Below are positions 18,899 through 44,020 of a stretch of DNA of 64,000 nucleotides, piece after piece. The notes beneath the pieces were generated by a model that was not told the origin of the DNA, searched no databases, and was given only the letters and a program-made list of their open reading frames with translations. Position numbers and translations under genes: made by a program. Positions within the stretch are counted from its first letter, which is position 1. Every line of letters begins with the position of its first letter. This DNA is from Variovorax paradoxus (GTDB lineage: Bacteria > Pseudomonadota > Gammaproteobacteria > Burkholderiales > Burkholderiaceae_C): positions 4,157,001 to 4,221,000 of the forward strand of contig NZ_CP045644.1 of the NCBI RefSeq assembly GCF_009498455.1. The letters run 5' to 3'.

Positions 18899-18901
18899 GC
18901 A

Positions 18902-20374: not shown

Positions 20375-20384
20375 GGGGGGTCCT

Positions 20385-20732: not shown

Positions 20733-20760
20733 CAGTGGGTGAACTTGTTTATTGGCAGGT

Positions 20761-20792: not shown

Positions 20793-20803
20793 GAGGAATT
20801 GCG

Positions 20804-24580: not shown

Positions 24581-25792
24581 ATGGCACTCTCCGACACCGC
24601 CGTTCGCAAGGCGAAGCCCGAGGCAAAACCCTACAACCTCGCCGACGCGGCTGGCCTCTATCTCCAGGTCACTCCCGCCGGCGGCAAGCTCTGGCGCTGG
24701 AACTACCGGCATGAGGGCAAGCAGAAGACCATGGCATTCGGCAGCTACCCCGACGTGCCACTCGCTGACGCACGAGAAGCACACCAGACGGCCCGCAAGC
24801 TGAAGGCGACAGGTGTTGACCCGATGGCGCAGCGAAAGACTGAGAAGGTGGCCAGTCGCATTGCCGCGGAGAACTCGTTCAAGTCGGTTGCCGAGCAGTG
24901 GCAGGCCCAGTGGAAGCCCACAAAGAGCGAGCGGCATGCGCTCAGCGTCTGGCGCCGGCTGGAGATCGACGTGTTCCCGGCCATCGGCAGCCGGCCTGTG
25001 TCTGAGGTCAAGCCGGCCGAACTGGTTGCGATGCTCAAGAAGATCGCCGAGCGCGGCGCGCTCGACATCGCAAAGCGCTGCCTCCAGATGTCCGGCCAGG
25101 TATTCCGCTACGCCGTGGCGCACGGGCTCGCGGAACGTAACCCCGTCGCTGACATCAAGCCCAGCGACGTGCTGCCGTCGCGAAAGACGAAGAACTTCGC
25201 GCGCGTGGGCGCCGACGAACTGCCCGACCTGCTGCGCAAGATCGAGGGCTACGGCGGAGCCGCCATCACACGCCTGGCCGTGAAGCTGCTGGCGTATACC
25301 TTCGTGCGCACCGGTGAGCTGATCGGCGCGAGCTGGGATGAGTTCGATCTCGACGGCGCCGTGTGGCGCATTCCGAAAGAGCGGATGAAGATGGAGACGC
25401 CCCACATCGTGCCGCTGTCGAAGCAAGCGGTGGAGGTGCTGCGCACCTTGCACCTCATCACTGGCCACGGCGTTCTGCTGTTCCCAGGTGAGCGCGATCA
25501 CGAGAAGCCGATGAGCAACAACACGATCCTGGGTGCGTTGAAGCGCATGGGCTACGCCGGGCAGATGACCGGGCACGGGTTCCGCGGCGTGGCGTCGACC
25601 GAGTTGCACGAGATGGGTTTCGAGGATGCGCACATCGAGGTGCAGCTCTCGCATCTGAAGCGTAATCGCGTTGCTGGCGCCTACGACCACTCGAAGTACC
25701 TCAAGCCGCGCGCCGCGATGATGCAGGCGTGGGCCGATCACCTCGACCAGCTTCGTCAAGGGGCAAAGATTCTGGCGTTCAAGGCCGCGTAG
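24581..25792 (+). CDS. int: Tyrosine recombinase, P4-type integrase
   Basis: A 403-residue phage/island integrase: N-terminal DUF4102-type arm-binding domain (ALSDTAVRKAKPEAKPYNLA), core-binding SAM-like domain (about 95-190) and catalytic domain. Active-site candidates are Arg in TFVRTGEL (about 245), H-x-x-R in GHGFRG (about 328), His in LSHLKRN (about 352) and the nucleophile Tyr in AGAYDHSKYL. The gene is complete. Such enzymes usually integrate at tRNA 3' ends; the target here is not evident. It implies that part of this accessory region entered as an integrative element. Confidence 0.93.
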   Translation: MALSDTAVRKAKPEAKPYNLADAAGLYLQVTPAGGKLWRWNYRHEGKQKTMAFGSYPDVPLADAREAHQTARKLKATGVDPMAQRKTEKVASRIAAENSFKSVAEQWQAQWKPTKSERHALSVWRRLEIDVFPAIGSRPVSEVKPAELVAMLKKIAERGALDIAKRCLQMSGQVFRYAVAHGLAERNPVADIKPSDVLPSRKTKNFARVGADELPDLLRKIEGYGGAAITRLAVKLLAYTFVRTGELIGASWDEFDLDGAVWRIPKERMKMETPHIVPLSKQAVEVLRTLHLITGHGVLLFPGERDHEKPMSNNTILGALKRMGYAGQMTGHGFRGVASTELHEMGFEDAHIEVQLSHLKRNRVAGAYDHSKYLKPRAAMMQAWADHLDQLRQGAKILAFKAA

Positions 25793-25850
25793 TTGGCGTC
25801 ATGGTGTGCCCGCAGACATAGAGGGATGCGGATCGCACTGCGCCGGAAGT

Positions 25851-25869
25851 GTGAACAAAACGTCACATG
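25851..25869 (+). promoter_or_regulatory. GTGAA-N5-CGTCACATG motif before the STN gene
   Basis: GTGAA (25851-25855), five bases, CGTCACATG (25861-25869). Nearly the same arrangement is found at 28275-28293 before the haemagglutinin gene. It lies about 117 bp before the STN gene start. It may be part of the promoter recognised by the adjacent ECF sigma factor. Confidence 0.45.
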
Positions 25870-25967
25870 TCGGTCATGCGCGGCGGCTAGTCTCGCCAGC
25901 ACGCTCACCGTGGCCGCGCGGCGGACGGCCGCTTCCCAAACTCTTCCTGTTGTTGATCCTCCGTCAC

Positions 25968-26702
25968 ATGACACGTACTCCCGCATCGGGCGGTGCCCTG
26001 ACACTGTCCTGGTGCCTTGTCATGGCGCTGGTGATGTGCGCCGCCCACGCGGCAGCAGCCGACGACATGGCGACCGACGCGGTGCCTTTGCATTTCGATC
26101 TGCCGGCGCAGCCGCTGGCGCGCTCCCTTGCCGTCTTCGGCCACCTCACAGGCCACTCGGTGCTCGTCACCAGCCGCCTCACCGATGGGCGCGAGGCGTC
26201 GCCTGTGCAAGGCGACTTCGCGCCGCATGAAGCACTGCAGCGCATGCTTGTCGGCACCGGGCTGGTGGCCCGCTACACCGGCGCCAGCGCGTTCACGCTC
26301 ATGCCGGTACAGGCGACAACCGCGGTTCAGGACGAACGCGCGCCGGCGGGCGCCCCCACGGCAGGCAGTGCCGGTGCCTTGCAGGCCTACGCGGCCGTCC
26401 TGCAGGGTGCAGTCACCCGTGTGCTGTGCGTTGCGCAACCCGACGCCTTCGGCCGCTACCGGCTCGCGATCCAGTTGTGGATCGACGCGGCGGGTGTCGT
26501 CACCGAGGTCCGCCTGCTCGAGGGCAGTGGCGTGCCGGCGCGCGACGCCGCGGTGCTCGCCAGCCTGCGCACGCTCGGCCTGGACACGCCGCTGCCGGCC
26601 GCGCTGACGCAGCCCGTCACCCTCCTGCTGACCCCGCGTCCCGACCCGGCGCGCGACTGCCGCCCGTACCTGCGTGCGCGCGCGGCCGGTGCCGTGGGCT
26701 GA
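25968..26702 (+). CDS. STN domain and TonB C-terminal-like domain protein
   Basis: A 244-residue exported protein: signal peptide about 1-30 (ALTLSWCLVMALVMCAAHAA), an STN domain (about 38-105, LHFDLPAQPLARSLAVFGHL; VQGDFAPHEALQRMLVGTGL), a linker, and a TonB_C-like domain (about 145-225, RYRLAIQLWIDAAGVVTEVR; LLEGSGVPARDAAVLASL). STN domains usually sit at the N-terminus of TonB receptors and signal to FecR; here there is no barrel. It lies 5 bp before an ECF sigma gene, so it is likely a free-standing signalling component of that FecR pathway. Confidence 0.82.
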   Translation: MTRTPASGGALTLSWCLVMALVMCAAHAAAADDMATDAVPLHFDLPAQPLARSLAVFGHLTGHSVLVTSRLTDGREASPVQGDFAPHEALQRMLVGTGLVARYTGASAFTLMPVQATTAVQDERAPAGAPTAGSAGALQAYAAVLQGAVTRVLCVAQPDAFGRYRLAIQLWIDAAGVVTEVRLLEGSGVPARDAAVLASLRTLGLDTPLPAALTQPVTLLLTPRPDPARDCRPYLRARAAGAVG

Positions 26703-26707
26703 GGCGC

Positions 26708-27268
26708 ATGTCCGAATCAATCAAGGCGTCGCTGCGCGCGTTGTTTCTCGCGCGCTATGCGCAGTTCCGCAAGCACCTGCACCACCGCCTCGGCTCGGAA
26801 GACCTCGCCAACGATGCGCTGCAGGAGGCTTACCTGCGCGTGGAGAGCTCGACCGTGCGCAGCGCCGTGCGCTATCCCTCGGCCTACCTGTTCCGCATTG
26901 CGCTGAACGTGGCGGAAGACCAGCGCAAGAGCAACGCGCGGCTGCTGAGCGTGGGTGAGATCGAAGCGCTGTACGACATGGCTGACGAGGCCGCCGACCC
27001 CGCGCGCGGCGCCGAGGCGCGCAACGAACTCGAGGCGCTCGAGCGCGCGCTGGCTGAGCTGCCGCGCCGCCGCCGCGCCATCGTGCTGGCCGCGCGAATC
27101 GACGAGATGCCGCACAAGGACATCGCGGCGCGTTACGGCGTGTCGGCGCGCACCGTCGAAAAAGAACTGCGCGCCGGTCTCGAGCATTGCTGCGAGCGGC
27201 TCGGCAGGGATTTCATCCAGCGCTTCGGTCCCGGCGCCGGAAAACAGTCTTCCCATGATGACCGCTGA
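26708..27268 (+). CDS. ECF (FecI-like) sigma factor
   Basis: A 186-residue extracytoplasmic-function sigma factor with region 2 (about 10-75, FRKHLHHRLGSEDLANDALQ) and region 4 helix-turn-helix (about 115-165, MPHKDIAARYGVSARTVEKE). It is second in the STN-sigma-FecR operon and overlaps the FecR start by 14 bp. Predicted targets are its own operon and the downstream haemagglutinin gene, based on position and a shared upstream motif. Confidence 0.9.
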   Translation: MSESIKASLRALFLARYAQFRKHLHHRLGSEDLANDALQEAYLRVESSTVRSAVRYPSAYLFRIALNVAEDQRKSNARLLSVGEIEALYDMADEAADPARGAEARNELEALERALAELPRRRRAIVLAARIDEMPHKDIAARYGVSARTVEKELRAGLEHCCERLGRDFIQRFGPGAGKQSSHDDR

Positions 27269-28253
27269 AGAACCCGAAGCGACCGAGGCCATGAAGACCC
27301 TGCAACGCGAAGCGCAAGCCTGGGTGGTGCGGCTCGGCTCGCAACAGGCGACGGAGGCCGACGGTCAGGCCTTCCGGCGCTGGTGCGCGCGCAGCCGCGA
27401 CCATGCGCAGGCCTTCGTGCAGGCGCGCGAGGTGTGGCAGGCCATGGCGCCGGCCGCGCAGCGCGTGCGCCAGCAGGAGGGGCGCGAGGCGGCCCGCCGC
27501 CTTCCGGTGCCCGGCCGCCGCGCCTTCCTGGGCGGTGCGGTCGCGGCATCGGTCGCCTACCTCACTGTGTCGCCGCCGCTGGCGCTGTGGCCCTCGCTCG
27601 CCGAGTGGGGCGACGACTACCGCACTGTCACCGGTGAACAGCGCGAGGTCGCCATGGGCGACGGCGTGGTGCTGCAGATGAACACGCAAACGCGTATCAA
27701 CCTGCGGCGCGGCGCGGCGCCAGAGCCCGCAGGCGAGGCCATCGAGCTGGTGTCCGGCGAGGCCGAGGTGCTGGCCGGCGGTTCGACCTCGGCGCGCATC
27801 ACGGTCGCGGCGGGCGCAGGCACGGTGTCGGCGACGCGCGCGCGCTTCAACATCCGCCATTTCGACGGCGAGGTCTGCGTGACCTGCCTTGCGGGACAGG
27901 TCGACGTGGCGCAAGGCACGCAGCAGGTGCGGCTCGACGAGGGCCGGCAGCTGCGCTACGGCGCTGCCGGGCTCGGCGTTGCCACGGCCGTGGACACCGC
28001 CGCTGTCATCGCATGGCGCCGCCGCCAGCTCGTGTTCGACCAGGTGCCGCTGTCACAGGTGGTGGCTGAGGTCAACCGCTACCGCCATGGCCGGCTCATC
28101 CTCACGAGCGAGGCGCTGGGCCGCAGCCGCGTGCAGGCCAGCTTTTCCATCGACCGGCTGGACGACGTGGCCCTCCTCGTGCGCGATGTGTATGGCGCCG
28201 AACTCACGCAGTTGCCCGGCGGCATCGTGCTGCTGGGCGCCGCGAACGCCTGA
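27255..28253 (+). CDS. FecR-family sigma regulator
   Basis: A 332-residue anti-sigma/signal transducer: cytoplasmic DUF4880-type N-domain (about 12-60, EAQAWVVRLGSQQATEADGQ), a single membrane segment after RRAFLGGAVAASVAYLTV (about 88-110), and a periplasmic FecR domain (about 125-225) followed by an STN-like tail (FDQVPLSQVVAEVNRYRHGR). Two adjacent ATGs (27255, 27258) are possible. It would relay a signal from the exported STN protein to the ECF sigma factor. Confidence 0.9.
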   Translation: MMTAEEPEATEAMKTLQREAQAWVVRLGSQQATEADGQAFRRWCARSRDHAQAFVQAREVWQAMAPAAQRVRQQEGREAARRLPVPGRRAFLGGAVAASVAYLTVSPPLALWPSLAEWGDDYRTVTGEQREVAMGDGVVLQMNTQTRINLRRGAAPEPAGEAIELVSGEAEVLAGGSTSARITVAAGAGTVSATRARFNIRHFDGEVCVTCLAGQVDVAQGTQQVRLDEGRQLRYGAAGLGVATAVDTAAVIAWRRRQLVFDQVPLSQVVAEVNRYRHGRLILTSEALGRSRVQASFSIDRLDDVALLVRDVYGAELTQLPGGIVLLGAANA

Positions 28254-28274
28254 GGCGTGCCGAACCGCGCGTTC

Positions 28275-28293
28275 GTGAAGATTTCGTGACATG
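28275..28293 (+). promoter_or_regulatory. GTGAA-N5-CGTGACATG motif before the haemagglutinin gene
   Basis: GTGAA (28275-28279), five bases, CGTGACATG (28285-28293); 13 of 14 specified positions match the copy at 25851. It is about 122 bp before the preferred haemagglutinin start, almost the same offset as in front of the STN gene. Confidence 0.45.
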
Positions 28294-28396
28294 GTGCAGT
28301 CGCACCCGACCTTCGCTGTCATAGCTCGGTAGTCCACGAGCCGTTTCGGTTCGTGGCCCCAATCGAGCAACGAAACACGAACTCATGGAAGTCCGC

Positions 28397-31300
28397 ATGC
28401 AACGCAGCAGCAGCCGCACGGTGTCCCGGCGTAGTCAGCCGAACGCGTCCTCTTCCTCGTCCACGGCAGTCGTGCAGGCACGGCTCACGCCACTGGTGCG
28501 CGCCATCGCGCTGCTGCTAGCCGGCGGTGCAGCGTTCGACGGCGTGCAGGCGCAGCAGGCTTTCAGCGGCGCCTGGATGGCGCAGAAGAACATGGCGCAG
28601 AGCACCGCGCTGGCCACCGGCCGCCTGCCCAACGGCATGCCCGCCGCGATGCTCGCGGGACCGCAGGCACAGCAGCAACGCGCGAACGAACAGCTGCAGC
28701 AGTCCATCGGCAATTTGAATTTGGCGGCGCGTGCCATCGCGGCGCAACAATCGGCCCAGGCCGCAGCGCGCGCGGCTGCACAGAACGATCCGTCGGTGCC
28801 CGACGGCCTTGCCGAAGGCGGCCTGAAGGTCGACACGAATGCGCTCACCGCCGGCTGGCACAACGCGCGCCCGCTCACGGCCGATTCGCAGCGGCAGGCC
28901 GCGGGCCGCACGGTGGTCATGGTCGAGCAGACGGCAGACAAGGCGATCCTCAACTGGGAGACCTTCAACGTCGGCAGGAACACCACGGTGAAGTTCGACC
29001 AGAAGGTCAACTGGGCGGTGCTCAACCGGGTGAACGATCCGAAGGCTCGGCCAAGCCAGATACAAGGCCAGATCAAGGCCGATGGCACGGTGATGGTGGT
29101 CAACCGGAACGGCATCATCTTCAGCGGCAGCAGCCAGATCGACACGCGCAACTTGGCGGCATCGGCGTTGAACATCAGCGACGCACAGTTTGGCAAGGGG
29201 CTGTTCAGCGAGGCGCAGGGGTCGGCCCATATTCCCACCTTCGCCAACGACCTCGCCATCGGTGCCAGCAGCTTCGCTCACGGCGCGGCGACTGCCGGCG
29301 TCACCGTCGAAACCGGCGCGCGCATCGCCACGCGCGCGCCGCAGTCGGTGACGGAGGGCGGCGGATATGTGCTGCTGCTGGGCCGCGAAGTGCGCAATGC
29401 CGGCGAGATTGCCACGCCCTCCGGCCAGACCGTGCTCGGCGCTGGCGATGCCTTCGTGATCCGCAAGGGCCTGGCCACCGATTCGAATCAGGCCTCCACC
29501 ACGCGCGGCAACGTCGTGAGCTCGTTGCGCAACAGCGGCAGCGGGGCCGGAGATGTCCTCAACAGCGGCTTGGTGCAGGCGACGACCGGCGACATCACCC
29601 TGGTCGGGAAGAACCTGCGCCAGGAAGGCGCGCTGGTCGCCACCACCTCGGTACACACGCGTGGCACGGTCCACCTGCTGGCGGACCGGGCCGATGCCGC
29701 GAGCCAGGTGACGATGGGCGAGGGCAGCCTGACGGCGGTGGTGCTCGATGCGTCCGCGACCACCGCGCTCGACGTGCAGCGCGAGACGCTGGTCCAGGCT
29801 TCCGAGAGACCCGGAGACGGCGTGTCTCACCGGCGCGACCAGTCGCTGGTCCGGATCGACAGCGGGAGCAGCGTCGACTTCAACGCCGGCTCGTTGACGC
29901 TTGCCACGGGCGGCCAGGTGCTGGTGGATGCCCCCCGCCGCAGCACCGTGCACGCGGGCGCCGCCATCGACGTTGCGGGCGCGGTCGGCGTCGTCGTCGC
30001 GATGGAGGCCAACAACGTGCAGGTCAATGTGCAGGGCAACGAGCAGCGCGATGCGCCCGGCAACCGCGACTCGAAGCGGCTGAACAACAGCAACCTCTGG
30101 CTAGACCGGCGCGACCTGGTCCGAGTGGCCGCCGGCACGAACGGCTACGAGACCGACCGCTGGTACACGGCGGGCGGCCTGCTCGAGGTGGGCGGCTACC
30201 TCGGCGTGACCGGACACGGCATCGCCGAATGGTCGGCGCTGGGGGGCACCGTGCAGTTCGGCGGCAGCGAGCTCGTCACACGGCCGGGCTCGTCCATCAA
30301 TGTGTCCGGCGGAACGCTCGACGTGCAGACCGGTTATATCCACCAGTCGTGGCTCGTGGGAACCGACGGCCGGCTCTACAACGCCTCGCGTGCACCGGGC
30401 GACCTGCTCTACAGCGGCGTCTACAAGGGCTTCCGGACCGAGCATGTGCGCTGGGGCAACGCAGCTGAAGAATCGTTCTACAGCCCACTGATCGGGCCGA
30501 TGCGGCGGCTGGAGAACGGCTACACCGTCGGCCGCGACGCGGGCAGGCTCGTGGTCGCCACGCAGGCGGCGGTGCTCGAGGGCGACGTCGAAGGCACGAC
30601 CTTCCAGGGCGAGCGCCAGACGCGCGGCCGCGATGCGGACATGGACGGCTACCAGCAGGCGCAGACGGCGGTCGCCCGCGGCGCGCGGCTTGTGCTCGGC
30701 AGCCTCACGCCGATCTACGACAAGCAGACAGGCCGCCTGCGCGACAGCCCCGCTGCGATCGTGAACGAGGTCCTGATCGGCGACATGCCCGACGGCGCCA
30801 TGCCCGACAGTGGGCGCATCGTGCTCGACGCCGGCTGGCTCAACGGGCTCGGGCTGGGTGCATTGGAGGTTTATGCGCGCGGTGCCGTGATGGTGCAAAA
30901 GGGCGTCGAGGTGGCCACGGGCGGCGACATCGCTCTGCATGCGACGCAGGTCCGCGTCGATGCCGATCTCACCGCACGCAGCGGCTCCATCGCCCTGGGC
31001 AACCTGTTCGTCCGCCGCTCCGAAGCGGCCGGCGGCGCGTGGCTCGAAGAGCCCGTCAGCCTCACGGTGCCGACCGGGCGAGCCCTGGAGACGGTGGTGG
31101 CTGACGGCGTGAGGCTGGACGTGCGGGGCGTGTGGAGCAACCTGCAGCAGGACCCCGCCGGCTCCGGCGGGCTGCCCTTCATCGACGGCGGCAAGGTGGC
31201 GATCCGCGGCAGCGGCAACGTGGCCATCGGAAAGGACAGCCTGATCGATGTGTCTTCCGGCGCGGCCTTGATGGCGGACGGCTCGCTGCGGGGCGGCCGC

Positions 31301-34300
31301 GGCGGGGACGTCGACCTGGCCGCCGGGCAACACAGCGGCACCGGCGTGCTTTCGCTGGACGGTGCGTTGCGCGGACATGGCGTCGAGGGTGGCGGTCAGC
31401 TCCATATCGCCCATGGCACGCTGGTCAGCATCGGCGGCAGGCTGCCGCAGGCCGTCGAGCAGTTGCAGGCCGGCCAGGCCACCACGCTGCCGCTGCGGCT
31501 GGCCAACGACTACGTCGTCGGCGCGGGCCAGGTCATCCCGATGAACTTCTCGGTCACGGTGTCGCGCCTGTTGCCGGGCCAGCCCTTGCTGACCGGCACG
31601 CAGCCCCTGGTCCAGTCCGGCAACCCCGTGACCCTGCAGGCGCCGTGGCTGGTGCCGGTGACCGTGGTCACTGCGGGCGGCCAGCAGGTCCACGCCGGCG
31701 CGACCCTTCCCGCCGGCACGGTGCTGACCACCATCGGCAGGCTCGATGCGGGCTACGTGCTGCCGGCCAGCGTCTTCCCCGACGGCCTCCCGATCACGCC
31801 CTCCACGCGCAGCTACCAGGCTGGCAGCATCGCGGCCGCGCCGGTGGTCGTGCCGGCGGGCATGCGCATTCCGGTCGGCACCTTCTGGCCCGAAGCGGTG
31901 GCGGTGCAGCCTTCGCTGGCGCTGGGCACTGGCCTGTTCCAGAGTGGCTTCCGCCACTACGCGGTCGAGGGCCAGGACGGACTGGTTGTCGTCGACGGCG
32001 CGCAGCTCTCGGTCGCCATGCCGGTGCTGCGCGCGGACCCTGCGCTGGCGCGCGGGCTTGCCAGCGGCGAAGACCCGTCGCTCGCGCTGCAGGCGTGGTT
32101 GCCGCCGCTGCTGCAGAACGATCCGGCAAAGGCGCGGATGCGCCTGCGCGAAGGCGCCAGCCTCTCGCTGGTGGCGGGCTCGCGGCTGTCCGAGGGCGAC
32201 GCGCACGTCGGCGCGGGCGCGCGCATCACCGTTGATCCGGGCGAGGCCATCACGCTGACCGGCAATGCGCAGATCACCATCGAGGGCGAACTGCGGGCGC
32301 ACGGCGGACGCATCTCCGTATTGCCGGGCACCTTCGGCACGGGCTCGTCGCAGGGCGCCCCCAGCGCGCGCTCGCTCTGGATCGGCGAGCAGGCGGTGCT
32401 CGACGTTTCCGGCCAGGCATACGTCGGTGTGGACGCGAAGGGTCGGCGCCATGGGCAGGTGCTCGATGGCGGCGTCATCGAAATCGGCGGCAGGCACGAC
32501 CTGGCGGCGCAGATCTTCGATGCGATCGACAGCTTTGTCGTGGTGCGCAAGGGCGCGCGGCTGGATGCCTCCGGTGCGTCCGCCACGCTCGACCTGCCGG
32601 GCCTGGGCGAGGTCTTCCTGCCCAGCGACGGCGGCGCGATCTCGCTGAGTTCGGGCAACGGACTCTACATCGACGGCGCGCTGCGCGCCGCAGCGGGCGG
32701 GGCAGGCGCATCCGGCGGCAGCCTGGCGCTCAACTTGGAGACGCCGGTCTATCTCGGCGTCGAACGCAACAGCCTTCTGGGCGATGCCGTCAGCGACGAG
32801 GTGCGCGTGCCGCGCGAGCTGGTGCTGGGGCAGACCCATGCGGGCAGCGGCCTGCGCGCCGACCTGAAAGCGGGTGCTGCCGATGCGGGCCTGGCCTACG
32901 GCAAGGCGCGCTACGGCGTGGATGCGGTGCATGCCGGCGGCTTCGACACGCTGTCGCTGTTCGCCAACGGACTGCTTGGCTTCGATGGCAACGTCGAGCT
33001 GCAGATGGGCAACGCGCTGTACCTCACCGCGAGTGCGCTCGGGCTGAGCCAGTCGGCGCCCCGCGACAGCCGGGTGCACCTGTCGGCACCGTACCTGCGG
33101 CTGGCTGGCAGCACGGCCCGCCAAGGGGACGGCACCCTGATGCCCAATCCGGTGTTCGGCTCAAGGAACGTCAGCGCGGGCAGCGGCACGCTGGGGGTGC
33201 CGCTGGTCGCCGAGGGCGCGGGGCTGCTGCTCGAGGGCGGCCTGATCGATGTGGTGGGCGAGTTCGGCATGGGTGCGCGCGGCGAGATCGTGCACAACAG
33301 CGGCACGCCCCTGAAGGTCGAGCGCGATGCCTTCGGCGACGTGCAACTGCGCAGCCGCGGCGACCTGCGCCTGCGCGGCGCGGCCCTGTTCTCGCCGGGC
33401 GACATGGTGTTGGCGGCGCGCCAGATCCACGGCAGCGGCACGGTGGTGGTGGGCCAGCGAACCGCCTTCGACACCTGGGGCAACGCCAGCATCGCGCTCG
33501 ACCCGGCACGCAGCCTGGACATCGAACGCGTCGGCGAGGTGCTGCCGCCGATGCCGTACAGCGTGTTCGGCGAGATGGCTTTCTTCGCCGCCACAGTCAA
33601 CCAGGGCGGCGTGCTGCGCGCGCCCCTGGGCAGCATCACGCTGGGGCGGGCCGACGGCAGCGGCTACACCGGGCAGGTCAACCTGCTGCCGGGCAGTGTC
33701 ACGTCGGTCAGTGCCAATGGCCTGACCATGCCCTACGGCGGCACAGTCGACGGGCTGAGCTACTACTACGACGGCGCGGATGTGGACTACCGCGGCGTCG
33801 GCCTCGAGCCGAAGGTCCTGTTCAACGCGCACGCCGTCGATGTGCGCGGCGGCGCGGTGATCGACCTGTCCGGCGGCGGCGAGCTGACCGGCGCGGCCTT
33901 CCTGAGCGGGCGCGGCGGCTCCACCGATGCACGCCTGCATCCGCTGATGCAGCGGTCGGGCGACGGCCGCGGCTTCGTGCTGCCGGGCCTGGCCACCAAC
34001 CCGGTGTACGCCATCGTGCCCGGCGCGCAGGCGGGGCAGGCGCCCGTCGCCCCCGAGAAGGGCGCGGGCGATCCGGCGATCGGCCGGCAGATCACCATCG
34101 GCGCGGGTGTACCGGGCCTGCCCGCAGGCACCTACACGCTGCTGCCCTCGACCTATGCGCTGTTGCCGGGCGCCTTCCGCGTCGAGCTCAACGGCTTGGC
34201 CGCGAGTGTCAGCGCCTTCGGCACCGGCAGTGCAATGCGCAACGGCTCATGGAGCACGTCGGCGCGCCTGGGCATGGCCCAGTCGGGCGTGCAGGACGTG

Positions 34301-37300
34301 CTGCCCACGCAGGTGGTGCTCACGCCGGCCGGCACTCTGCGCAGCTACTCGCAGTACAACGAGACCAGCTACGCCGGCTTCGCGACCGCCGTGGCCGCGC
34401 GCGACGGGGTGCCGCGCCCGGTGCTGGAACGCGATGCAAAGGCCGTTCACTTCAATTTCCTGTCGCCCGACCAGGCTGGCGCGCTCGGCGCGGCGCCTGC
34501 GCTGCGCTTCGATGGCGCGCTGCGCGGCAACGCCGCAGGCGGCGGCCATGGGGCGACCGCGGTGGTCCGCAACGCATCGCGCTACGAGCTGCTCGCCGAC
34601 GGGGCCGCGCCCACGAGCGGCTTCGATGGCGTGTCGGTGCATGCGAGCAGCCTGAATGCGCTCGGCGCTTCGCGGCTGGTCATCGGCGGTGAGCTCAGGT
34701 CCGTCTACACCGACTCGCAGACCGGATCGCACCAGTCGGCGAACATCATCAGCGTGGCTGGCGCGAACACCGGCGGCATCGTGCTGCGCGCGGGCGCAGA
34801 GCTGAAGGCGGCCGAGGTGTTCCTGCTGACCGGCCGCGTCGATGGCGGCATCGTGCTGGAGCAGGGCGCCGCCATCAACACGCTGGGCCGGGGTGCCGCG
34901 TCGTACGACGCCGGCCAGGGCTATGCCTACGACCCGGGGCGCAGTTCGATGCTCGCCGTCTCCAACGGCGTGCTCCACATGCTGGCGCCGTCGGCCGCAG
35001 ATGCGCAGGGCAACGGCGCGGGTTCGATCGAGATCGGCAACTGCGCCGTGGCGGCGGGCTGCAGCGGCGTCACGCGGCTGTATTCCGAAGGCACGATCAC
35101 GGCGGCAACGGACAACCGCTTCGTGCTCGGCGATGCGGTGCGCTACGGCACGCGCAACCTCGTGCTCGCCGTGGGCAGCATCAACGCTGGCACCGCGCCA
35201 GCGCTGAGCGACGCCGCCGCGCGCGGCGTGCTGAAGGCGGGCCTGACGCTCAACCAGGACGTGCTCGGCCGACTGCTGCTCGGTGACACCAGCGTGGGCG
35301 CGCCGGCCCTGGAGAACCTGGTGCTGACCGCGCGCGATTCGGTCAACTTCTTCGGCAACGTGACGCTGTCCACCATCGACCCCGCCACCGGCCGCTCCGC
35401 GCTGGAGCGCCTGGTGCTCGGCACGCCGGCCATCTACGGCAGCGGCAGCGCGGGCGACACCGCGCGCATCCACACCGACACGCTGGTCTGGACCGGCACG
35501 ATCAATCCGGCGGGCGCCGTCGTGGCGGGCGGCGCGGGCACCGGCAGCGGGCAGCTCACGGTCGATGCGCGCGAAATCGAGTTCGGCTTCGGCCCCGGCA
35601 TCCGCGTGGATTCGGTGCGCTCGCACGACCGGCTGGCGTTGGGTTTCGCGTCGGTGAACTTGAACGCGGCCGAGCGCATCACGGCCAACCACAAGGGCAC
35701 GCTGTCGGTCCATGCGGCGCAAGGTGCGTGGAACGACGCCACCAAGGCCTTCGACCGCAGCGGCGGCAACCTGAACATCAGCACGCCGCTGTTGACCGGC
35801 CGGGCAGGCTCCGTCAACAGGCTCTCGGCCGGCGGCGACATCCGCGTGGGCAGGCCTGCCGGTGCTGCGGCGCCGACCGAAAGCGCCACGCCGGCTGGCG
35901 CGCTGGGCGCCGAACTGGCGCTGGACAGCCTGGCCGGCCGCCTGGTGCTCGACACCGCCGTGCTGCTGCCCAGCGGCAAGCTGGGCCTCGGCGCGCAGGG
36001 CAACGTGCAGCTTGGCGACGGCGCGCAAATCGACCTGGCCGGCCGTCGCATCGGCTTCTTCGACACCGCCCGCTACAGCTGGGGCGGCGACGTCGCGATC
36101 GAGAGCCGGGGCGGCGACATCGCGCAGTCCGCGGGCTCCCGCATCGACCTGTCGGCACGGAACAACCGGGCCGGCAAGCTCACGGCCATCGCGCTCGGCC
36201 AGGGCGCGGGCACCGTGGCGCTGGCCGGCACGCTCGAAGGCGCGAGCAGCGGCCACTACGACGCCGGCGGCACCGAGGTGCCTTTCGCTGCCGGTGCCAT
36301 CGAGGTGCGCGCGCAGCACATCGCCGATTTCTCCGGGCTCAACCGGCGCCTCACCGACGGCGGTGTCGTCGGGCGCCGCAGCTTCCAGCTGAAGCAAGGC
36401 GATTTGGCCATCGGAAGCGAGATCAAGGCGCGCGAAGTCAACGTATCGGTCGACAGGGGCCATCTCACGGTCCACGGCACCATCGACGCCAGCGGCGAAC
36501 AGGTCGGCAGCATCCGCCTGGCGGGCCGGCAGGGTGTGACGTTCACGGGTTCGGCCGTGCTAGACGCCCATGCCAGCGTGCAGCGTGTCGACAGCTATGG
36601 CCAGACCATCGACGCACCGAACCGGGCGGTCATCGAGGTCGACTCGGGCGACGGGCGCCTCACGCTCGCAAGCGGTGTGCGCATGGACCTGCGCGTGGCC
36701 GGTGCCAGTCGCCACCAGGGAACGGTCGTGCTCAACGCACCGCGCCTGGGCGGCGCGCGCGGCAACGACGTCGACATCGACGCGGCCGGAACCATCGCCA
36801 TCGACGGCGCCAAGGCCATCGTCGTCAATGCCTTCATCACTGACGACAGTGCCCCGGCCGGCACTGACGCCACGGCCGACGGCCGCACCTACCAGCGGAT
36901 CGACCAGGCTTGGCTGGACGCTCGTCATGCCGACAGCGTGGCGTTCATCGGCAATGCGCTGGACAACGCCAGCCTGATGAACGGCAAGCTCGCGGGCCTG
37001 CGCGGCTACACGTCGCAGTTCCGCCTGCGTCCGGGGCTCGAGGTTGCCAGCCATGCGGCCAACACCGATGGCGATCTGCACATCGACGGCGACATCGACC
37101 TGTCGAGATACCGCTACGCCAGCGTGAACCCCGCCACGCAGATGACGGATGCGTACGGATCGGGCGAGGCCGGCGCGCTGGTGGTGCGCGCGGCGGGCAA
37201 CCTCGAGGTGTTCGGCAGCATCAGCGACGGTTTCGACGGTTCGCGCCTGCACGCCACCGCCGACGACAACGGCTGGGTCCTGCTCAAGGGCCGACAGCCC

Positions 37301-40300
37301 TGGGGCGCCGATGTAGTCGTGCCGCACGGCGGGCTGGTCACGCTCGCGCGGGACACCTTCTTCCCGTCTGGCAAGGTCCTGAACTACGACCTGCCGATGC
37401 AGGCGATGAGCCTGGCCGCGAACACGCTGCTGCCGGTCGCCGCCACCTTGAGCGAGCCGCTGAGCCTGGCGGCTGGCACGGTGTTGTCGGGCCCGGTGTC
37501 CGATGCCGCGGGCAACCTGCTGCATGCGGCGGGCACGGTGCTGGCGCAAGGGACCACGCTGCCCGAGGGCGCCCGGCTGGGTGCGGGCGTGCGCCTGCCG
37601 GTGGGCGCGAAGGTCGCCGCCATGACCTGGCCGCGCGGCGTGGCGCTGCCGTTCCCGATCGGCGCGGTCAACGACACGACCGATGCATGGAGCACACCCA
37701 ATGGCGTGCAGCTTGCGCAGGACCTGACGCTGCGCAAAGGCTCGCTCGTCCCCAGCGAGACGGTGGTCAGGCTGCCCGGCGGCGCCGAGATGGTGGACCT
37801 GCGCCCGCGCGAAGCCGACGGCATGCAGGGCCGCAACTGGGCGGTGGCCCCGATGCTGCCTTCGGGCTCGCAGTCGTGGGACATCACGCTGGTCGGCGGC
37901 GCCGAAACGGGGGCTGCCGACCGGTTGGCGACGGCCCGCGGTACGAAGGGCGGCGTGCGGGTGTCCGACCTGCACTACGGCATGGGCCAGGACGAGGTGC
38001 CCGTGCCGGGGACCGGCACGCCAGCCACGTACCGGTGGGCGGCCGATGCGGATGTTGCGATGTGGGAGACGTGGGGGCTGCCGCCGGGGACCCTGGTGCC
38101 GGGCGGCACGATTACGCCAGAGGCCCTGCAGACACTGTTCGATTTCGGCTTCATATCCGCGTCACCGCTGGAGCTGAACGACTGGGGTCTGGGCAACACG
38201 GTGGCCGTGGAGAGCCCCGGCACGCCGCCCGACACCACCCGGGTTTCGCGTCCCGTGCGCGAGGAGCTCTTCAGCGTGCTGCGCACCGGAACGGGCGACC
38301 TGCGTGTCGTCTCGGGCGCCGACATCCTCACCACCTCGCTCTACGGCGTCTACACCGCGGGCACGCCGTCGGCGTCCCTGGCGCCAGCGGGCCAGCCCGA
38401 TCGCCATGACCTGGGCCGCAGCGTCGGCCACGACGGCACGCTGCTGGGTCCGAAGGGCAGGTCTTTCGCACCGCTGGTGGACGGCGGCGGTCAGAGCCTC
38501 TATGCGGCCTGGTACCCCGAAGCCGGGGGCAACCTGCTGCTGCGCGCGCAGGGCGAGGTGATGGGCGACAGCATCGGCCGGCGCGGGGAACGACAGCGCG
38601 AGGAAGGCTTCGGCTACCCGGTGGCGCCGCTCACCGGCAGCGCGTCGGTCGGCACCTGGCTGTGGCGCCAGGGCACCGGCCGCGTGGAGACCGGCCCCGA
38701 GGCCGTGCCCACCGCGTGGTGGATCAATTTCGGCACTTACGTGCCGTCGTTCGTGGAAGACGGCAACGCCTACAGTCCGATGCCGCGCCTCGTCGGCTTC
38801 ACCGGCTTCGGAACGCTGGGCGGCGGCAACCTGGTGCTGGAAGCCGGCGGCGATGCGGGCATGCTCACCGGCCGCGGCGATTGGGGTGCGGTCTTCGTCA
38901 ACCGCAGCCAGGGCCTGAACCTGGCGGTGGCCGGCACCGGGCGCATGGCGTCGGATGGCAGCTTGGTGCTCACGGGCGGCGGTGACCTCGACGTTCGCAT
39001 CGGCGGTGGGCTCAATGCCGATCCAGCGCTGCGCAGTTTCAGCGGACGCAGTTCCGGCGAGAGTGCCAACACCGCCTATCTGCGCGACACGCACCGAGTC
39101 GACCTCAACGGCATGCTCGTCAACCTGCGCGGTGCGCTGCGGCTGGAGGCAGGCAGCGTCGGCGGCGTCGAGCTGCTCTATGGTCGGCAGGACAGCAAGG
39201 AGTCGCGCGCCTATGGCCTGGCCACGGCCAGCTCCGCCACCGCCAGCGGTGGGCCGGTGCTGGTGCCCGGCGATGCCGGGGTGCGGATCGATGCGCGCGG
39301 CGACCTGGTGATCGCCAACGTGGTCGATCCCGGCCGCGTGCCCCAGTTCAGCGGCGGCACGCCCTTCCATGCGGACGGTGCGCAGCACGACGGCGGCGGC
39401 TTCAGCTGGTTCTCGCTGTGGACGCCGTCCACGGCCGTGGACCTGCTGTCTGCGGGCGGCCATCTGGCGCCCACCCTGGCATGGCTGAGCAATGGGCAGG
39501 GCGATGCCACGGCGACCGACGGCGCGAACCTGTACCCGTCGATCTTCCGTGCGGCGGCCGCCAGCGGCAGCCTCTACTACGGCTACAAGCCCGCCAACGA
39601 GGACACCACCATCACGCGGCAGCACGTGGTGCTGGCGCCATCCCCGGTGGATCCGCACTTCAAGGCGACCGGCACCGGCCAGCTCGAGCTGCTGGCCGCC
39701 GGTTCCATCTATGCAGGCGGCTTCGGCTTCTCGATGTCGGGCGCGGACCCGACCGCGTTGCCCAGCCCGTTCAACCCCGGTTTCGTGGGGGACGCGGAAA
39801 CCATCTGGTACGGCCCGCGCAAGGTGCACAACGTGAGCAGCGCCGCCCTCGCGCCGGCGGTGCTGCTGAACACGGGTCCCATGGGCGGCGGCGGCGGAGC
39901 GGGCACGTATCCGCTGTTCTCGTTCACACCGCCGACGGCTTCCGGCCATGTGCACGTGGGGCAGCCGCCGGCGCGCTACTACGCGGCGCAAGGCGACATC
40001 ATCGGTCTTCGTACCGGATCGATCATCCACCGGGGCAACAACACCGGCCAGCTCGGCAGCTACGCGAGCTGGTACGACGGCGGCGGGCCGGTGGCGATCC
40101 GTGCGGGGCGCGACATCGTCAATGCCGGCACCACGCTGGGGAGCTACGACAACCTGGGCAGCGTCTATCGCTTCGAGCCGGGCGCGCTGGGCTGGCTCAC
40201 GATGGAGAACCTAGGTGATCTCGGTGCCCCGCAGAAACCTGTAGCCGTGCCGGGCGGAACGGGCCGCGGCAACCTGATCGTGCACAACAGCCTGGACGAC

Positions 40301-41896
40301 GTGTCGGTCGTCGAAGCGGGTCGCGACATTCTCACCAGTACCTTCTACGTCGCGGGCCCGGGCCTGCTGGACCTCAGTGCCGGGCGTAATGTCTACATGG
40401 CCGACAAGGCCGAGCTGCGCAGCATCGGCCCGGTGGCCAGCGCGGTGCCCGGCGACCGAGGCAGTGGCGCCGGCATCGCGGTCATGGCGGGCGTCGGATC
40501 GCACGGACCCGCTTGGCGCGCATTCGCCGAGCGCTACCTGGATCCGGCCAACCAGGCCGATCCGGCGGTGGCCTTCGCCGACCAGCCGGGCAAGGCGCTC
40601 GAGATCTACAGCGGCAGCCTGCACCTGGTCAAGTGGCTGAGCGAGCGCTTCGGCGGCGCCAACGGCTTGGGGCTGCATTTCGATGCCGCGACCATGGACG
40701 CGCGCGCCTTCTTCACCGCGCTGCCACCGGCGCAGCAGAACGTGTTCCTGCGCGACATCTACTACGCCGAACTCAAGGCCGCCGGCCGCGAGTACAACGA
40801 CGCGGACGGCAAGCGCTCGGGCAGCTACCTGCGCGGGCGCGAAGCCATCGCCACGCTGTTCCCGGCGCAGGATGCCGAAGGCAGCGCCTTGCGCTACGAG
40901 GGCGACCTCACGATGTTCAGCAGCGCGCTGTACTACAGGCAGTACGTCGACAGCCCCGCCACCCGCCGGCCCGAGCGCGGCCTGACATACATCCGCGAGG
41001 ACGAGTGGGTGGCGCGCGGCAGCCCGGGCTACGACGTGCCGTTCTACAAGGTGCTCGACGCCGGCATGCACACCGACTTCGGCGGCGACATCAGCCTGAT
41101 GGTGCCGGGCGGCCGCGCGCTGGTTGGGGTGGACGGCGGCTTCACTCCGGGCGAAGGCTCGGGCCTGCTCACGCAGGGCGCGGGCGACATCCGGATCTAC
41201 ACGCAAGGTAGCCTGCTGCTGGGCCAGAGCCGCATCTTCACCACCTTCGGCGGGCACATCCTGGCGTGGTCGGCCGAAGGCGACATCAACGCCGGGCGGG
41301 GCAGCAAGACCACCGTCGTCTACACGCCGCAGCGGCGTGCCTACGACAGCATCGGCAACGTGTCCCTGTCGCCGACCACGCCGAACACCGGCGCCGGCAT
41401 CGCCACGCTCAACCCGATCCCGGAAGTGCCGCCCGGTGACATCGACCTGATCGCGCCGTTGGGCACCATCGATGCAGGCGAGGCGGGCATCCGCGTCTCG
41501 GGCAATGTCAACTTGGCGGCGCTCCAGGTGGTCAACGCCGAGAACATCCAGGTGCAGGGCGAGTCGGTGGGCATCCCGGTGGTCGCCGCCGTCAATGTGG
41601 GAGCGTTGACCAATGCCAGCGCGGCGGCCTCGCAGGCTGCCACAGCGGCGCAGGACGCCGTGCAGCGCGACCGCGCGGCCCAGCGCCAAGCGCTGCCGTC
41701 GGTGTTCACCGTGCGCGTGCTCGGCTTCGGCAACGAACCCGCGGGCGGCGAGGCCGGTGGCGGCGGTGCCGGACCCGAGCGCAGCGGCGCGGCCTACGAC
41801 CCCAAGGGTGTGGTGCAGGTGCTCGGCGCGGGCACGCTCACGACCGCGCAGATGCAGTCGCTCACGCCGGGCGAGCAGCGGGGGCTGAAACGCTGA
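28397..41896 (+). CDS. Giant filamentous haemagglutinin (TpsA-type exoprotein)
   Basis: About 4,499 residues. An extended basic/Ser-rich signal region (to about residue 57, ending GVQAQ) leads into a TPS/haemagglutination-activity domain (about 140-285) with NRNGIIFSGSSQIDTRNLAA. A very long repetitive beta-helical stem of Gly/Asp/Val-rich strands follows. Near residues 3010-3100 is a run of LAAGTVLSGP/LPEGARLGAG-type repeats. The C-terminal 190 residues (AYDSIGNVSLSPTTPNTGAG; GDIDLIAPLGTIDAGEAGIR) resemble DUF3739. The start at 28397 is preferred over ATG 28385 because GGAAG lies five bases before it. No TpsB transporter gene is nearby. It follows the STN/ECF/FecR operon. Confidence 0.9.
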   Translation: MQRSSSRTVSRRSQPNASSSSSTAVVQARLTPLVRAIALLLAGGAAFDGVQAQQAFSGAWMAQKNMAQSTALATGRLPNGMPAAMLAGPQAQQQRANEQLQQSIGNLNLAARAIAAQQSAQAAARAAAQNDPSVPDGLAEGGLKVDTNALTAGWHNARPLTADSQRQAAGRTVVMVEQTADKAILNWETFNVGRNTTVKFDQKVNWAVLNRVNDPKARPSQIQGQIKADGTVMVVNRNGIIFSGSSQIDTRNLAASALNISDAQFGKGLFSEAQGSAHIPTFANDLAIGASSFAHGAATAGVTVETGARIATRAPQSVTEGGGYVLLLGREVRNAGEIATPSGQTVLGAGDAFVIRKGLATDSNQASTTRGNVVSSLRNSGSGAGDVLNSGLVQATTGDITLVGKNLRQEGALVATTSVHTRGTVHLLADRADAASQVTMGEGSLTAVVLDASATTALDVQRETLVQASERPGDGVSHRRDQSLVRIDSGSSVDFNAGSLTLATGGQVLVDAPRRSTVHAGAAIDVAGAVGVVVAMEANNVQVNVQGNEQRDAPGNRDSKRLNNSNLWLDRRDLVRVAAGTNGYETDRWYTAGGLLEVGGYLGVTGHGIAEWSALGGTVQFGGSELVTRPGSSINVSGGTLDVQTGYIHQSWLVGTDGRLYNASRAPGDLLYSGVYKGFRTEHVRWGNAAEESFYSPLIGPMRRLENGYTVGRDAGRLVVATQAAVLEGDVEGTTFQGERQTRGRDADMDGYQQAQTAVARGARLVLGSLTPIYDKQTGRLRDSPAAIVNEVLIGDMPDGAMPDSGRIVLDAGWLNGLGLGALEVYARGAVMVQKGVEVATGGDIALHATQVRVDADLTARSGSIALGNLFVRRSEAAGGAWLEEPVSLTVPTGRALETVVADGVRLDVRGVWSNLQQDPAGSGGLPFIDGGKVAIRGSGNVAIGKDSLIDVSSGAALMADGSLRGGRGGDVDLAAGQHSGTGVLSLDGALRGHGVEGGGQLHIAHGTLVSIGGRLPQAVEQLQAGQATTLPLRLANDYVVGAGQVIPMNFSVTVSRLLPGQPLLTGTQPLVQSGNPVTLQAPWLVPVTVVTAGGQQVHAGATLPAGTVLTTIGRLDAGYVLPASVFPDGLPITPSTRSYQAGSIAAAPVVVPAGMRIPVGTFWPEAVAVQPSLALGTGLFQSGFRHYAVEGQDGLVVVDGAQLSVAMPVLRADPALARGLASGEDPSLALQAWLPPLLQNDPAKARMRLREGASLSLVAGSRLSEGDAHVGAGARITVDPGEAITLTGNAQITIEGELRAHGGRISVLPGTFGTGSSQGAPSARSLWIGEQAVLDVSGQAYVGVDAKGRRHGQVLDGGVIEIGGRHDLAAQIFDAIDSFVVVRKGARLDASGASATLDLPGLGEVFLPSDGGAISLSSGNGLYIDGALRAAAGGAGASGGSLALNLETPVYLGVERNSLLGDAVSDEVRVPRELVLGQTHAGSGLRADLKAGAADAGLAYGKARYGVDAVHAGGFDTLSLFANGLLGFDGNVELQMGNALYLTASALGLSQSAPRDSRVHLSAPYLRLAGSTARQGDGTLMPNPVFGSRNVSAGSGTLGVPLVAEGAGLLLEGGLIDVVGEFGMGARGEIVHNSGTPLKVERDAFGDVQLRSRGDLRLRGAALFSPGDMVLAARQIHGSGTVVVGQRTAFDTWGNASIALDPARSLDIERVGEVLPPMPYSVFGEMAFFAATVNQGGVLRAPLGSITLGRADGSGYTGQVNLLPGSVTSVSANGLTMPYGGTVDGLSYYYDGADVDYRGVGLEPKVLFNAHAVDVRGGAVIDLSGGGELTGAAFLSGRGGSTDARLHPLMQRSGDGRGFVLPGLATNPVYAIVPGAQAGQAPVAPEKGAGDPAIGRQITIGAGVPGLPAGTYTLLPSTYALLPGAFRVELNGLAASVSAFGTGSAMRNGSWSTSARLGMAQSGVQDVLPTQVVLTPAGTLRSYSQYNETSYAGFATAVAARDGVPRPVLERDAKAVHFNFLSPDQAGALGAAPALRFDGALRGNAAGGGHGATAVVRNASRYELLADGAAPTSGFDGVSVHASSLNALGASRLVIGGELRSVYTDSQTGSHQSANIISVAGANTGGIVLRAGAELKAAEVFLLTGRVDGGIVLEQGAAINTLGRGAASYDAGQGYAYDPGRSSMLAVSNGVLHMLAPSAADAQGNGAGSIEIGNCAVAAGCSGVTRLYSEGTITAATDNRFVLGDAVRYGTRNLVLAVGSINAGTAPALSDAAARGVLKAGLTLNQDVLGRLLLGDTSVGAPALENLVLTARDSVNFFGNVTLSTIDPATGRSALERLVLGTPAIYGSGSAGDTARIHTDTLVWTGTINPAGAVVAGGAGTGSGQLTVDAREIEFGFGPGIRVDSVRSHDRLALGFASVNLNAAERITANHKGTLSVHAAQGAWNDATKAFDRSGGNLNISTPLLTGRAGSVNRLSAGGDIRVGRPAGAAAPTESATPAGALGAELALDSLAGRLVLDTAVLLPSGKLGLGAQGNVQLGDGAQIDLAGRRIGFFDTARYSWGGDVAIESRGGDIAQSAGSRIDLSARNNRAGKLTAIALGQGAGTVALAGTLEGASSGHYDAGGTEVPFAAGAIEVRAQHIADFSGLNRRLTDGGVVGRRSFQLKQGDLAIGSEIKAREVNVSVDRGHLTVHGTIDASGEQVGSIRLAGRQGVTFTGSAVLDAHASVQRVDSYGQTIDAPNRAVIEVDSGDGRLTLASGVRMDLRVAGASRHQGTVVLNAPRLGGARGNDVDIDAAGTIAIDGAKAIVVNAFITDDSAPAGTDATADGRTYQRIDQAWLDARHADSVAFIGNALDNASLMNGKLAGLRGYTSQFRLRPGLEVASHAANTDGDLHIDGDIDLSRYRYASVNPATQMTDAYGSGEAGALVVRAAGNLEVFGSISDGFDGSRLHATADDNGWVLLKGRQPWGADVVVPHGGLVTLARDTFFPSGKVLNYDLPMQAMSLAANTLLPVAATLSEPLSLAAGTVLSGPVSDAAGNLLHAAGTVLAQGTTLPEGARLGAGVRLPVGAKVAAMTWPRGVALPFPIGAVNDTTDAWSTPNGVQLAQDLTLRKGSLVPSETVVRLPGGAEMVDLRPREADGMQGRNWAVAPMLPSGSQSWDITLVGGAETGAADRLATARGTKGGVRVSDLHYGMGQDEVPVPGTGTPATYRWAADADVAMWETWGLPPGTLVPGGTITPEALQTLFDFGFISASPLELNDWGLGNTVAVESPGTPPDTTRVSRPVREELFSVLRTGTGDLRVVSGADILTTSLYGVYTAGTPSASLAPAGQPDRHDLGRSVGHDGTLLGPKGRSFAPLVDGGGQSLYAAWYPEAGGNLLLRAQGEVMGDSIGRRGERQREEGFGYPVAPLTGSASVGTWLWRQGTGRVETGPEAVPTAWWINFGTYVPSFVEDGNAYSPMPRLVGFTGFGTLGGGNLVLEAGGDAGMLTGRGDWGAVFVNRSQGLNLAVAGTGRMASDGSLVLTGGGDLDVRIGGGLNADPALRSFSGRSSGESANTAYLRDTHRVDLNGMLVNLRGALRLEAGSVGGVELLYGRQDSKESRAYGLATASSATASGGPVLVPGDAGVRIDARGDLVIANVVDPGRVPQFSGGTPFHADGAQHDGGGFSWFSLWTPSTAVDLLSAGGHLAPTLAWLSNGQGDATATDGANLYPSIFRAAAASGSLYYGYKPANEDTTITRQHVVLAPSPVDPHFKATGTGQLELLAAGSIYAGGFGFSMSGADPTALPSPFNPGFVGDAETIWYGPRKVHNVSSAALAPAVLLNTGPMGGGGGAGTYPLFSFTPPTASGHVHVGQPPARYYAAQGDIIGLRTGSIIHRGNNTGQLGSYASWYDGGGPVAIRAGRDIVNAGTTLGSYDNLGSVYRFEPGALGWLTMENLGDLGAPQKPVAVPGGTGRGNLIVHNSLDDVSVVEAGRDILTSTFYVAGPGLLDLSAGRNVYMADKAELRSIGPVASAVPGDRGSGAGIAVMAGVGSHGPAWRAFAERYLDPANQADPAVAFADQPGKALEIYSGSLHLVKWLSERFGGANGLGLHFDAATMDARAFFTALPPAQQNVFLRDIYYAELKAAGREYNDADGKRSGSYLRGREAIATLFPAQDAEGSALRYEGDLTMFSSALYYRQYVDSPATRRPERGLTYIREDEWVARGSPGYDVPFYKVLDAGMHTDFGGDISLMVPGGRALVGVDGGFTPGEGSGLLTQGAGDIRIYTQGSLLLGQSRIFTTFGGHILAWSAEGDINAGRGSKTTVVYTPQRRAYDSIGNVSLSPTTPNTGAGIATLNPIPEVPPGDIDLIAPLGTIDAGEAGIRVSGNVNLAALQVVNAENIQVQGESVGIPVVAAVNVGALTNASAAASQAATAAQDAVQRDRAAQRQALPSVFTVRVLGFGNEPAGGEAGGGGAGPERSGAAYDPKGVVQVLGAGTLTTAQMQSLTPGEQRGLKR

Positions 41897-42338: not shown

Positions 42339-42378
42339 ATAATGAGTGCGAAAGTTTTTCATCCGAAAAGAGGCATCG

Positions 42379-42906
42379 ATGGCTGTCGGCGAGTCGACCC
42401 CGCACCAGCAGGCGCACGCCCTCTACCGCGCGCACCATGGCTGGCTTTTCAGCTGGCTGCGCGGCCGTCTGGGCAACAGCTTCGATGCGGCGGACATCGC
42501 CCACGACACCTTCCTGCGCATGTGGTCCGGCCTGCGGGCCGGCGCCATTCCCACGCTGCACGAACCGCGCGCCTACCTGACCACGGTGGCCAAGCGCCTC
42601 GTGATCAACCACCGCGAACGCCAGTCGCTGGAGCGCGCTTACCAAGCCTCGCTCGCGCAGTTGCCCGACGCGCTGGTGCCCTCGGTCGAGGAGCGCGCGA
42701 TCCTGCTCGAGACCCTGCACGAACTCGACGCGCTGCTCGACGAACTGCCCGCCCGCGCGCGCACCGCGTTCCTGCTGTCGCAGCTCGAAGGCCTGGCCTA
42801 TGAAGAGATCGCCGCGCGGCTCGGCGTCAGCGTGCGCACCGTGACGCGCTACATGGCGCGAGGCTTCGCGCAGTGCCTGCGGCTCATGCTGGCGACGCCG
42901 CTGTGA
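42379..42906 (+). CDS. fecI: FecI-type ECF sigma factor
   Basis: A 175-residue ECF sigma factor: region 2 (about 10-80, HQQAHALYRAHHGWLFSWLR; FDAADIAHDTFLRMW) and region 4 (about 115-165, SQLEGLAYEEIAARLGVSVR). AAGAGG precedes the chosen ATG. It is followed by FecR with a GTGA overlap and a TonB receptor, the standard iron-uptake signalling set. A Fur-like box lies upstream. Confidence 0.92.
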   Translation: MAVGESTPHQQAHALYRAHHGWLFSWLRGRLGNSFDAADIAHDTFLRMWSGLRAGAIPTLHEPRAYLTTVAKRLVINHRERQSLERAYQASLAQLPDALVPSVEERAILLETLHELDALLDELPARARTAFLLSQLEGLAYEEIAARLGVSVRTVTRYMARGFAQCLRLMLATPL

Positions 42907-43883: not shown

Positions 43884-43930
43884 TCGGCCGGCGCAGCGCG
43901 CGCCGCCCCCAAAAAAATCTTGCCGGTGCG

Positions 43931-43958
43931 TGTCCGGTTTTCGCGTCTCGCCTGTCAT
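43931..43958 (+). promoter_or_regulatory. Possible FecI-dependent promoter of the receptor gene
   Basis: TGTCCGGTTTT (43931-43941) and CTGTCAT (43952-43958) lie between an A-rich tract (43910-43917) and the receptor start. The arrangement resembles FecI-type receptor promoters in related bacteria, but no start site is known. Confidence 0.3.
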
Positions 43959-44020
43959 GTCGATTGAAAGCACACCGCCATCCACATCCCGACATGCGAC
44001 ATGCGACAAGGACACCCTTC

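Follow-up and report, generated by a model that had tools for sequence, protein, structure and literature searches.

A probable PUMA3/Vre-type surface-signalling unit in Variovorax and a composite promoter predicted to link its giant TpsA exoprotein to a remote TpsB operon

The closest described system is PUMA3 of Pseudomonas aeruginosa, published in 2009, which combines VreA-VreI-VreR with the two-partner secretion pair PdtA/PdtB (PMC2729926). VreA is described with an STN and a TolA-like domain, and the same paper notes clusters of this kind, repeated fourfold, in Janthinobacterium and Rhodopseudomonas (PMC2729926). The P. aeruginosa set includes pdtB, exbB2, exbD2, tonB4 and the genes from the porin PA0696 to the PPIase PA0699 (PMC2729926, PMC7035377). 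Expression of pdtA needs a pho box in addition to −35/−10 elements; the box consists of two 7-bp repeats at −40 to −45 and −50 to −56, and PhoB is required for binding of the sigma factor VreI, which it recruits (PMC4971064). Deletion of vreA is reported to have no effect on expression of the regulon in low phosphate or on virulence towards zebrafish embryos (PMC4971064, PMC7035377). The 2009 paper already describes the unit, ties it to two-partner secretion and records that it is multiplied in other genera (PMC2729926); the novelty that an earlier note on this DNA had implied for the arrangement is not supported. What is new here is a predicted composite promoter, formed by a pho-box-like repeat, the element GCAGTC, 16 bases and GTC.

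The window analysed here, a stretch of 64,000 bases, covers positions 4157001-4221000 of a genome that was searched as a single contig of 7,288,087 bases. Open reading frames and Pfam matches place four genes in succession on the plus strand: a VreA-like STN protein of 244 residues without a barrel (25968..26702), a VreI-like ECF sigma factor (26708..27268), a VreR-like FecR anti-sigma factor (27258..28253) and a giant exoprotein of 4,503 residues (28385..41896). This bears out the opening claim of the earlier note, that STN, ECF sigma and FecR genes precede a giant TpsA-like exoprotein. The STN and sigma genes are 5 bp apart, the sigma and FecR genes overlap, and 131 bases separate FecR from the giant reading frame. 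The closest named relatives belong to Variovorax, the FecR being 92% identical to that of V. boronicumulans. Upstream, similarity to related loci starts at 25825-25854, so the cassette retains its own upstream region. A tyrosine integrase gene (24581-25792) ends about 30-60 bases before that start, and a mobile element therefore seems to adjoin the cassette. Further upstream, metal-efflux genes (4883-21199) lie ahead of a stretch of lower G+C content (21-24 kb) and the integrase gene; they encode an outer-membrane efflux protein, a CusB-like protein with a CusF domain, an AcrB-type pump, an FTR1/cytochrome c protein, a heavy-metal P-type ATPase, signal peptidase II and a MerR regulator, and an IS66 remnant is also present. 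Directly 3' of the giant, on the same strand, a separate ordinary cassette of ECF sigma, FecR and STN-bearing TonB receptor occupies 42346-46540. Scans of the window for tRNA genes and Rfam families gave no matches.

The sigma factor carries Sigma70_r2 and Sigma70_r4_2 regions (3.4e-14 for the latter). FecR matches its family profile at 5.5e-14, with DUF4880 at the N-terminus and a C-terminal signalling domain that matches PupR (6ovk) at 9.6e-26; it contains Cys209, which is absent from the receptor-linked FecR of the window. The STN protein has a signal-peptide-like start, an STN domain (PF07660, E 2.2e-6, its 27.8 bits slightly below the cut-off of 28.4) and a C-terminal domain resembling TolA domain III, where Pfam gave a weak TonB_2 match below cut-off. 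Its structure model (mean pLDDT 86.4) predicts the fold of a signalling domain followed by TolA domain III, with neither plug nor barrel within the 244 residues, and the match to 6ovk gives the STN domain the fold known from solved structures to bind FecR-type proteins. Compared with four Variovorax loci, its dN/dS is 0.26-0.39. A profile of the protein found 16 matches in the genome, five of them full-length and each adjoining a giant; the other 11 are partial and mostly lie within receptor-length frames. The giant itself holds a TPS secretion domain (PF05860, 9.7e-20) at residues 171-386 (28895..29542) and a DUF3739 domain (5e-40) at residues 4289-4399 (41249..41581), and is predicted to be a TpsA destined for the cell surface. 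No paper naming DUF3739 was found among the open-access papers searched.

Going by the published description of PUMA3, the likeness extends to the barrel-less STN plus TolA-like protein, ECF sigma factor and FecR in the same order, to the giant TpsA and the TpsB-ExbB-ExbD-TonB-porin-PPIase set placed under their control (predicted here), and to the tpsB cluster of this genome, which resembles the PA0692-PA0699 set in kind. A pho box and a sigma promoter are established by experiment at both operons in P. aeruginosa; here the sequence clearly shows a shared pattern at both, whose likeness to a pho box is moderate. Unlike in PUMA3, the giant directly follows FecR: no type II secretion genes lie between the two, whereas P. 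chlororaphis does have such genes there; an Hxc-type system in the regulon is a P. aeruginosa trait not found in all relatives. Moreover, tpsB lies 92 kb beyond the giant, and the unit is present fivefold, with the pho-like repeat before the giant only in the window copy. The unit shares the STN fold, an ECF sigma factor and a FecR with PupR-type C-terminal domain with FecI-FecR-FecA, PupI-PupR-PupB and FpvI-FpvR-FpvA, but its STN protein lacks plug and barrel, its neighbour is an exoprotein rather than an iron receptor, and its FecR carries Cys209. As in FhaB/FhaC-type two-partner secretion, the giant has a TPS domain and the TpsB is of the ShlB/FhaC type with POTRA_2; in contrast to that type, the giant ends in DUF3739 and the exporter gene is remote, beside its own ExbB-ExbD-TonB-like genes.

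Conservation of the order across genomes, which the earlier note had named among the checks of its proposal, was found. Five giants with DUF3739 are encoded in the genome, and all five are preceded by an STN-ECF-FecR set; across the class, 369 genomes were sampled and 24 contain the domain, in one case below cut-off. Relatives were collected by scanning genome contigs with the N-termini of the giants, and the best 80 of 402 were examined. Twelve of these have less than 4.5 kb of upstream DNA and were excluded, though one (L072) still shows the full order. The order is kept in 62 of the 68 loci with enough upstream DNA, comprising 60 that passed a strict order test and two with split matches (L024 and L057), and the genera that show it include Variovorax, Cupriavidus, Azoarcus, Pandoraea, Janthinobacterium, Pigmentiphaga, Stenotrophomonas and Pseudoxanthomonas. 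In six loci no cassette adjoins the giant; five of these come from Achromobacter and one from P. chlororaphis. In the latter, the cassette is located about 17 kb upstream of the giant, and STN-ECF-FecR is followed by type II secretion genes, two PBP-type proteins and the giant, which is the PUMA3 layout; the genome of one Achromobacter exception (L089) contains a cassette-giant-tpsB run elsewhere (L170). Chance adjacency was rejected on the counts of 62 of 68 loci and five of five giants of this genome. One locus (L036), on a contig titled Bacillus subtilis, has the whole unit and a FecR that groups with Stenotrophomonas, and looks mislabelled. Close 3' of three of the other giants there is an extra ECF sigma gene (L011 6884-7441, L012 14231-14734, L014 9356-9904) with no adjacent FecR match.

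No TpsB was found among the window ORFs scanned. A genome search revealed two of the ShlB type. The first adjoins its own TpsA of 1,909 residues, in which DUF3739 was not found; because this TpsB sits with its own TpsA, the second, at 4291219 and 92 kb past the end of the giant, is left as the candidate exporter of the giant. The cluster that starts there encodes TpsB, an ExbB that carries DUF2341 and LamG domains, ExbD, a protein rich in proline whose C-terminus is TonB-like (no Pfam match, but a partial STN-profile match), a Porin_5 protein, a protein without a family above cut-off, and a PPIase. This ExbB fusion beside tpsB (L008 12931-14730), whose LamG domain is of the LamG type, is an energiser subunit with a large part that is likely periplasmic. 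In 13 of the 80 loci the STN gene is directly preceded by parts of the exporter cluster, tpsB itself being outside the fetched flank there, and in J. fluminis and an Achromobacter tpsB comes after the giant.

The gap between FecR and the giant contains TTCGTGAAGATTTCGTGACATGGTGCAGTC, 16 bases and GTC. Here, the pho-box-like repeat (28276-28290, a minus-strand match) is followed on the plus strand by GCAGTC at 28296-28301, 16 bases and GTC at 28318-28320. Comparing the upstream regions of the giant and tpsB, we wrote the pattern TTTCGTGACANNNNGCAGTC-N16-GTC, which has two perfect matches in the 7.29-Mb genome: one at 4185282, before the window giant, and one at 4291094, which is 125 bases before the tpsB ATG and 106 kb from the match at the giant. 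Two further places match at three mismatches, and the reversed control had no match in the genome. Within the window, the only match precedes the giant, and shuffles gave none. Because the pattern was derived from these two sites themselves, a matrix was built from giant promoters of other genomes only (18 loci, 6 distinct sites, window excluded). Over 614,296 positions of this genome's DNA, the matrix placed the window site at 70.0, tpsB at 30.5, a site after giant 2 at 23.2 and the next at 11.9. A plain 50-base identity scan with the giant's gap did not single out tpsB in this DNA (30/50, while three chance places reached 31); tpsB stood out only with the spaced pattern and with the matrix. 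The predicted promoter of the giant is thus 28270..28325, and its pattern is shared with the tpsB operon. No description of a promoter split between cassettes was found in the open-access papers searched.

The third matrix site precedes genes for a trypsin-like protease, a small protein and an HtrA-type protease. At that locus (L010 8837-11701), behind giant 2 and a copy of the composite promoter, the small protein has a TolA/TonB-like C-terminus. In nine other genomes, the relaxed pattern gave 14 matches at up to two mismatches, versus six for the reversed control. Six of the 14 precede giants or tpsB (two in EL159, one in Janthinobacterium WB4, one in J. fluminis and two in an Achromobacter), so that EL159 and one Achromobacter have the pattern at both genes; one more, a perfect copy, precedes the same protease genes in EL159. 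The remaining seven could not be tied to giant, tpsB or protease genes, among them those from the two Cupriavidus and from Pandoraea, and no match was obtained in two of the nine genomes. Separately, a strong matrix match (24.3) stands before a leftward gene of J. fluminis (L173 1068-1123, minus strand).

The repeat GTCAYNAAWNNKTCA, written from the promoters described above, is found in 36 of 71 FecR-giant gaps, and 36 of its 40 occurrences in 1,296,723 bases fall there. It occurs once in the window, at the giant. This genome and EL159 also have it at both tpsB and the protease operon, J. fluminis has it at tpsB, and P. chlororaphis at the giant. It is absent from the FecR-giant gaps of the other four giants of this genome, and the two Achromobacter promoter sites do not match it. 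On the FecR tree, where the window FecR and its P. chlororaphis counterpart join on a weak branch (SH-aLRT 84), the repeat label requires 5 changes compared with 23.6 for shuffled labels, a figure helped by near-copies; the repeat therefore follows cassette type. Sites were also scored out of 18 against an E. coli pho-box consensus, with shuffle p values. The pstS promoter of this genome (16) and the protease operon after giant 2 (14) are clear, a possible pho box before the STN-ECF-FecR operon (25860..25877, plus strand) is moderate at 13 (p 0.012), and tpsB is weak at 12 (p 0.12); the other four giants reach 10 to 12 (p 0.09 to 0.87). The upstream region with the possible box at the STN gene is also present in two related loci (L020, L021). 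The repeat is itself only a moderate match to this consensus, and the best site in the giant's gap (13) lies at the −10 region rather than at the repeat. Taken together, these data make control by PhoB likely. The start site of pdtA is 53 bases before its ATG (PMC4971064), and by analogy transcription of the giant may begin near 28328, 57 bases before the ATG.

In our preferred reading, to which we assign a probability of about 0.7, the locus is a PUMA3/Vre-type surface-signalling unit whose sigma factor, together with PhoB, fires the giant and the remote TpsB operon through the shared promoter pattern. Phosphate limitation would cause PhoB and the housekeeping sigma factor to transcribe STN-ECF-FecR, and FecR would retain the sigma factor at the inner membrane until a cue led to FecR proteolysis; the STN-TolA-like protein may pass this cue on to the C-terminal domain of FecR. 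The sigma factor and PhoB would then transcribe the giant and the tpsB-exbB-exbD-tonB-porin-PPIase operon, and probably the trypsin/TolA-like/HtrA operon as well, so that cargo, exporter and periplasmic helpers would appear together. The earlier note had proposed that the unit acts on the giant, with the STN protein sensing something at the envelope or secretion itself. Control of the giant is well supported as a prediction from the conserved order and from the conserved promoter that the FecR-giant gap shares with the region before tpsB; sensing by the STN protein found no direct support here, and vreA deletions are silent in the P. aeruginosa reports (PMC4971064, PMC7035377). That the adjacency is merely historical, the sigma factor mainly serving the receptor cassette at 42346-46540 or other genes, is very improbable: that cassette does follow on the same strand, but it has its own sigma factor, FecR and STN receptor, the giant follows STN-ECF-FecR in other loci too, and the conserved promoter before the giant contains the window's single copies of both pattern and repeat.

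The part played by the STN-TolA-like protein is where the readings diverge. The core might consist of PhoB, sigma factor and FecR only, with the STN-TolA-like protein outside signalling and instead helping the giant at the envelope or in secretion, an option we take seriously while leaning against it. The unchanged regulon and zebrafish virulence of the vreA deletion speak for it (PMC4971064, PMC7035377), as does a domain-level test in which the STN domain and the C-terminal part of FecR did not co-vary (partial r 0.05, p 0.32; 46 loci retained of 61). Against it, the STN gene stays next to the sigma and FecR genes in the 62 loci, its STN domain has the FecR-binding fold (6ovk), and the whole protein co-varies with FecR at a partial r of 0.44 and with the sigma factor at 0.08, among 44 loci left of 59 after removal of near-copies; the dN/dS of 0.26-0.39 likewise favours a part for the protein in the circuit. 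At the domain level, it is the TolA-like domain that co-varies with the FecR C-terminal part (0.32, p 0.0005); as the signal falls there and not on the expected STN domain, a model of STN-FecR contact gained nothing firm. Two cysteines are invariant in the STN proteins (52/52) and one is almost invariant in FecR (66/67); cysteine-based redox signalling was considered and set aside, the conserved residues suggesting no mechanism and standing as an observation only. Alternatively, the STN-TolA-like protein could report export of the giant, binding the periplasmic TpsB-TpsA-TonB side and releasing or engaging FecR according to export status. It travels with giants in five separate sets in one genome, the exporter operon contains its own ExbB-ExbD-TonB-like set, and the protein co-varies weakly with the giant N-terminus, but this partial r of 0.22 is small and comes without a permutation test, and the silent vreA deletions also count against the idea, which we regard as doubtful. 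A further proposal, likewise unlikely, is a division of labour in which the window cassette acts as a phosphate-gated master, connected through a common sigma/PhoB promoter with the only exporter-energiser operon and with a protease operon. The four satellite cassettes, which lack the repeat and have a sigma factor, FecR and STN-TolA protein each, would add giant cargoes to the same exporter, and every giant would have its export monitored by the STN-TolA protein of its own set.

The role of VreA has been open since 2009, its deletion being without reported effect in P. aeruginosa. The genome analysed here offers five natural STN-sigma-FecR-giant sets with one candidate exporter, that is, five comparisons within one genome, and the promoter pattern names the genes expected to respond together; the regulon can thus be tested directly outside a pathogen, and so can what the STN-TolA-like protein does. 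For several genera of the Burkholderiales, our preferred reading predicts that giant adhesin-like exoproteins would be linked to phosphate limitation.
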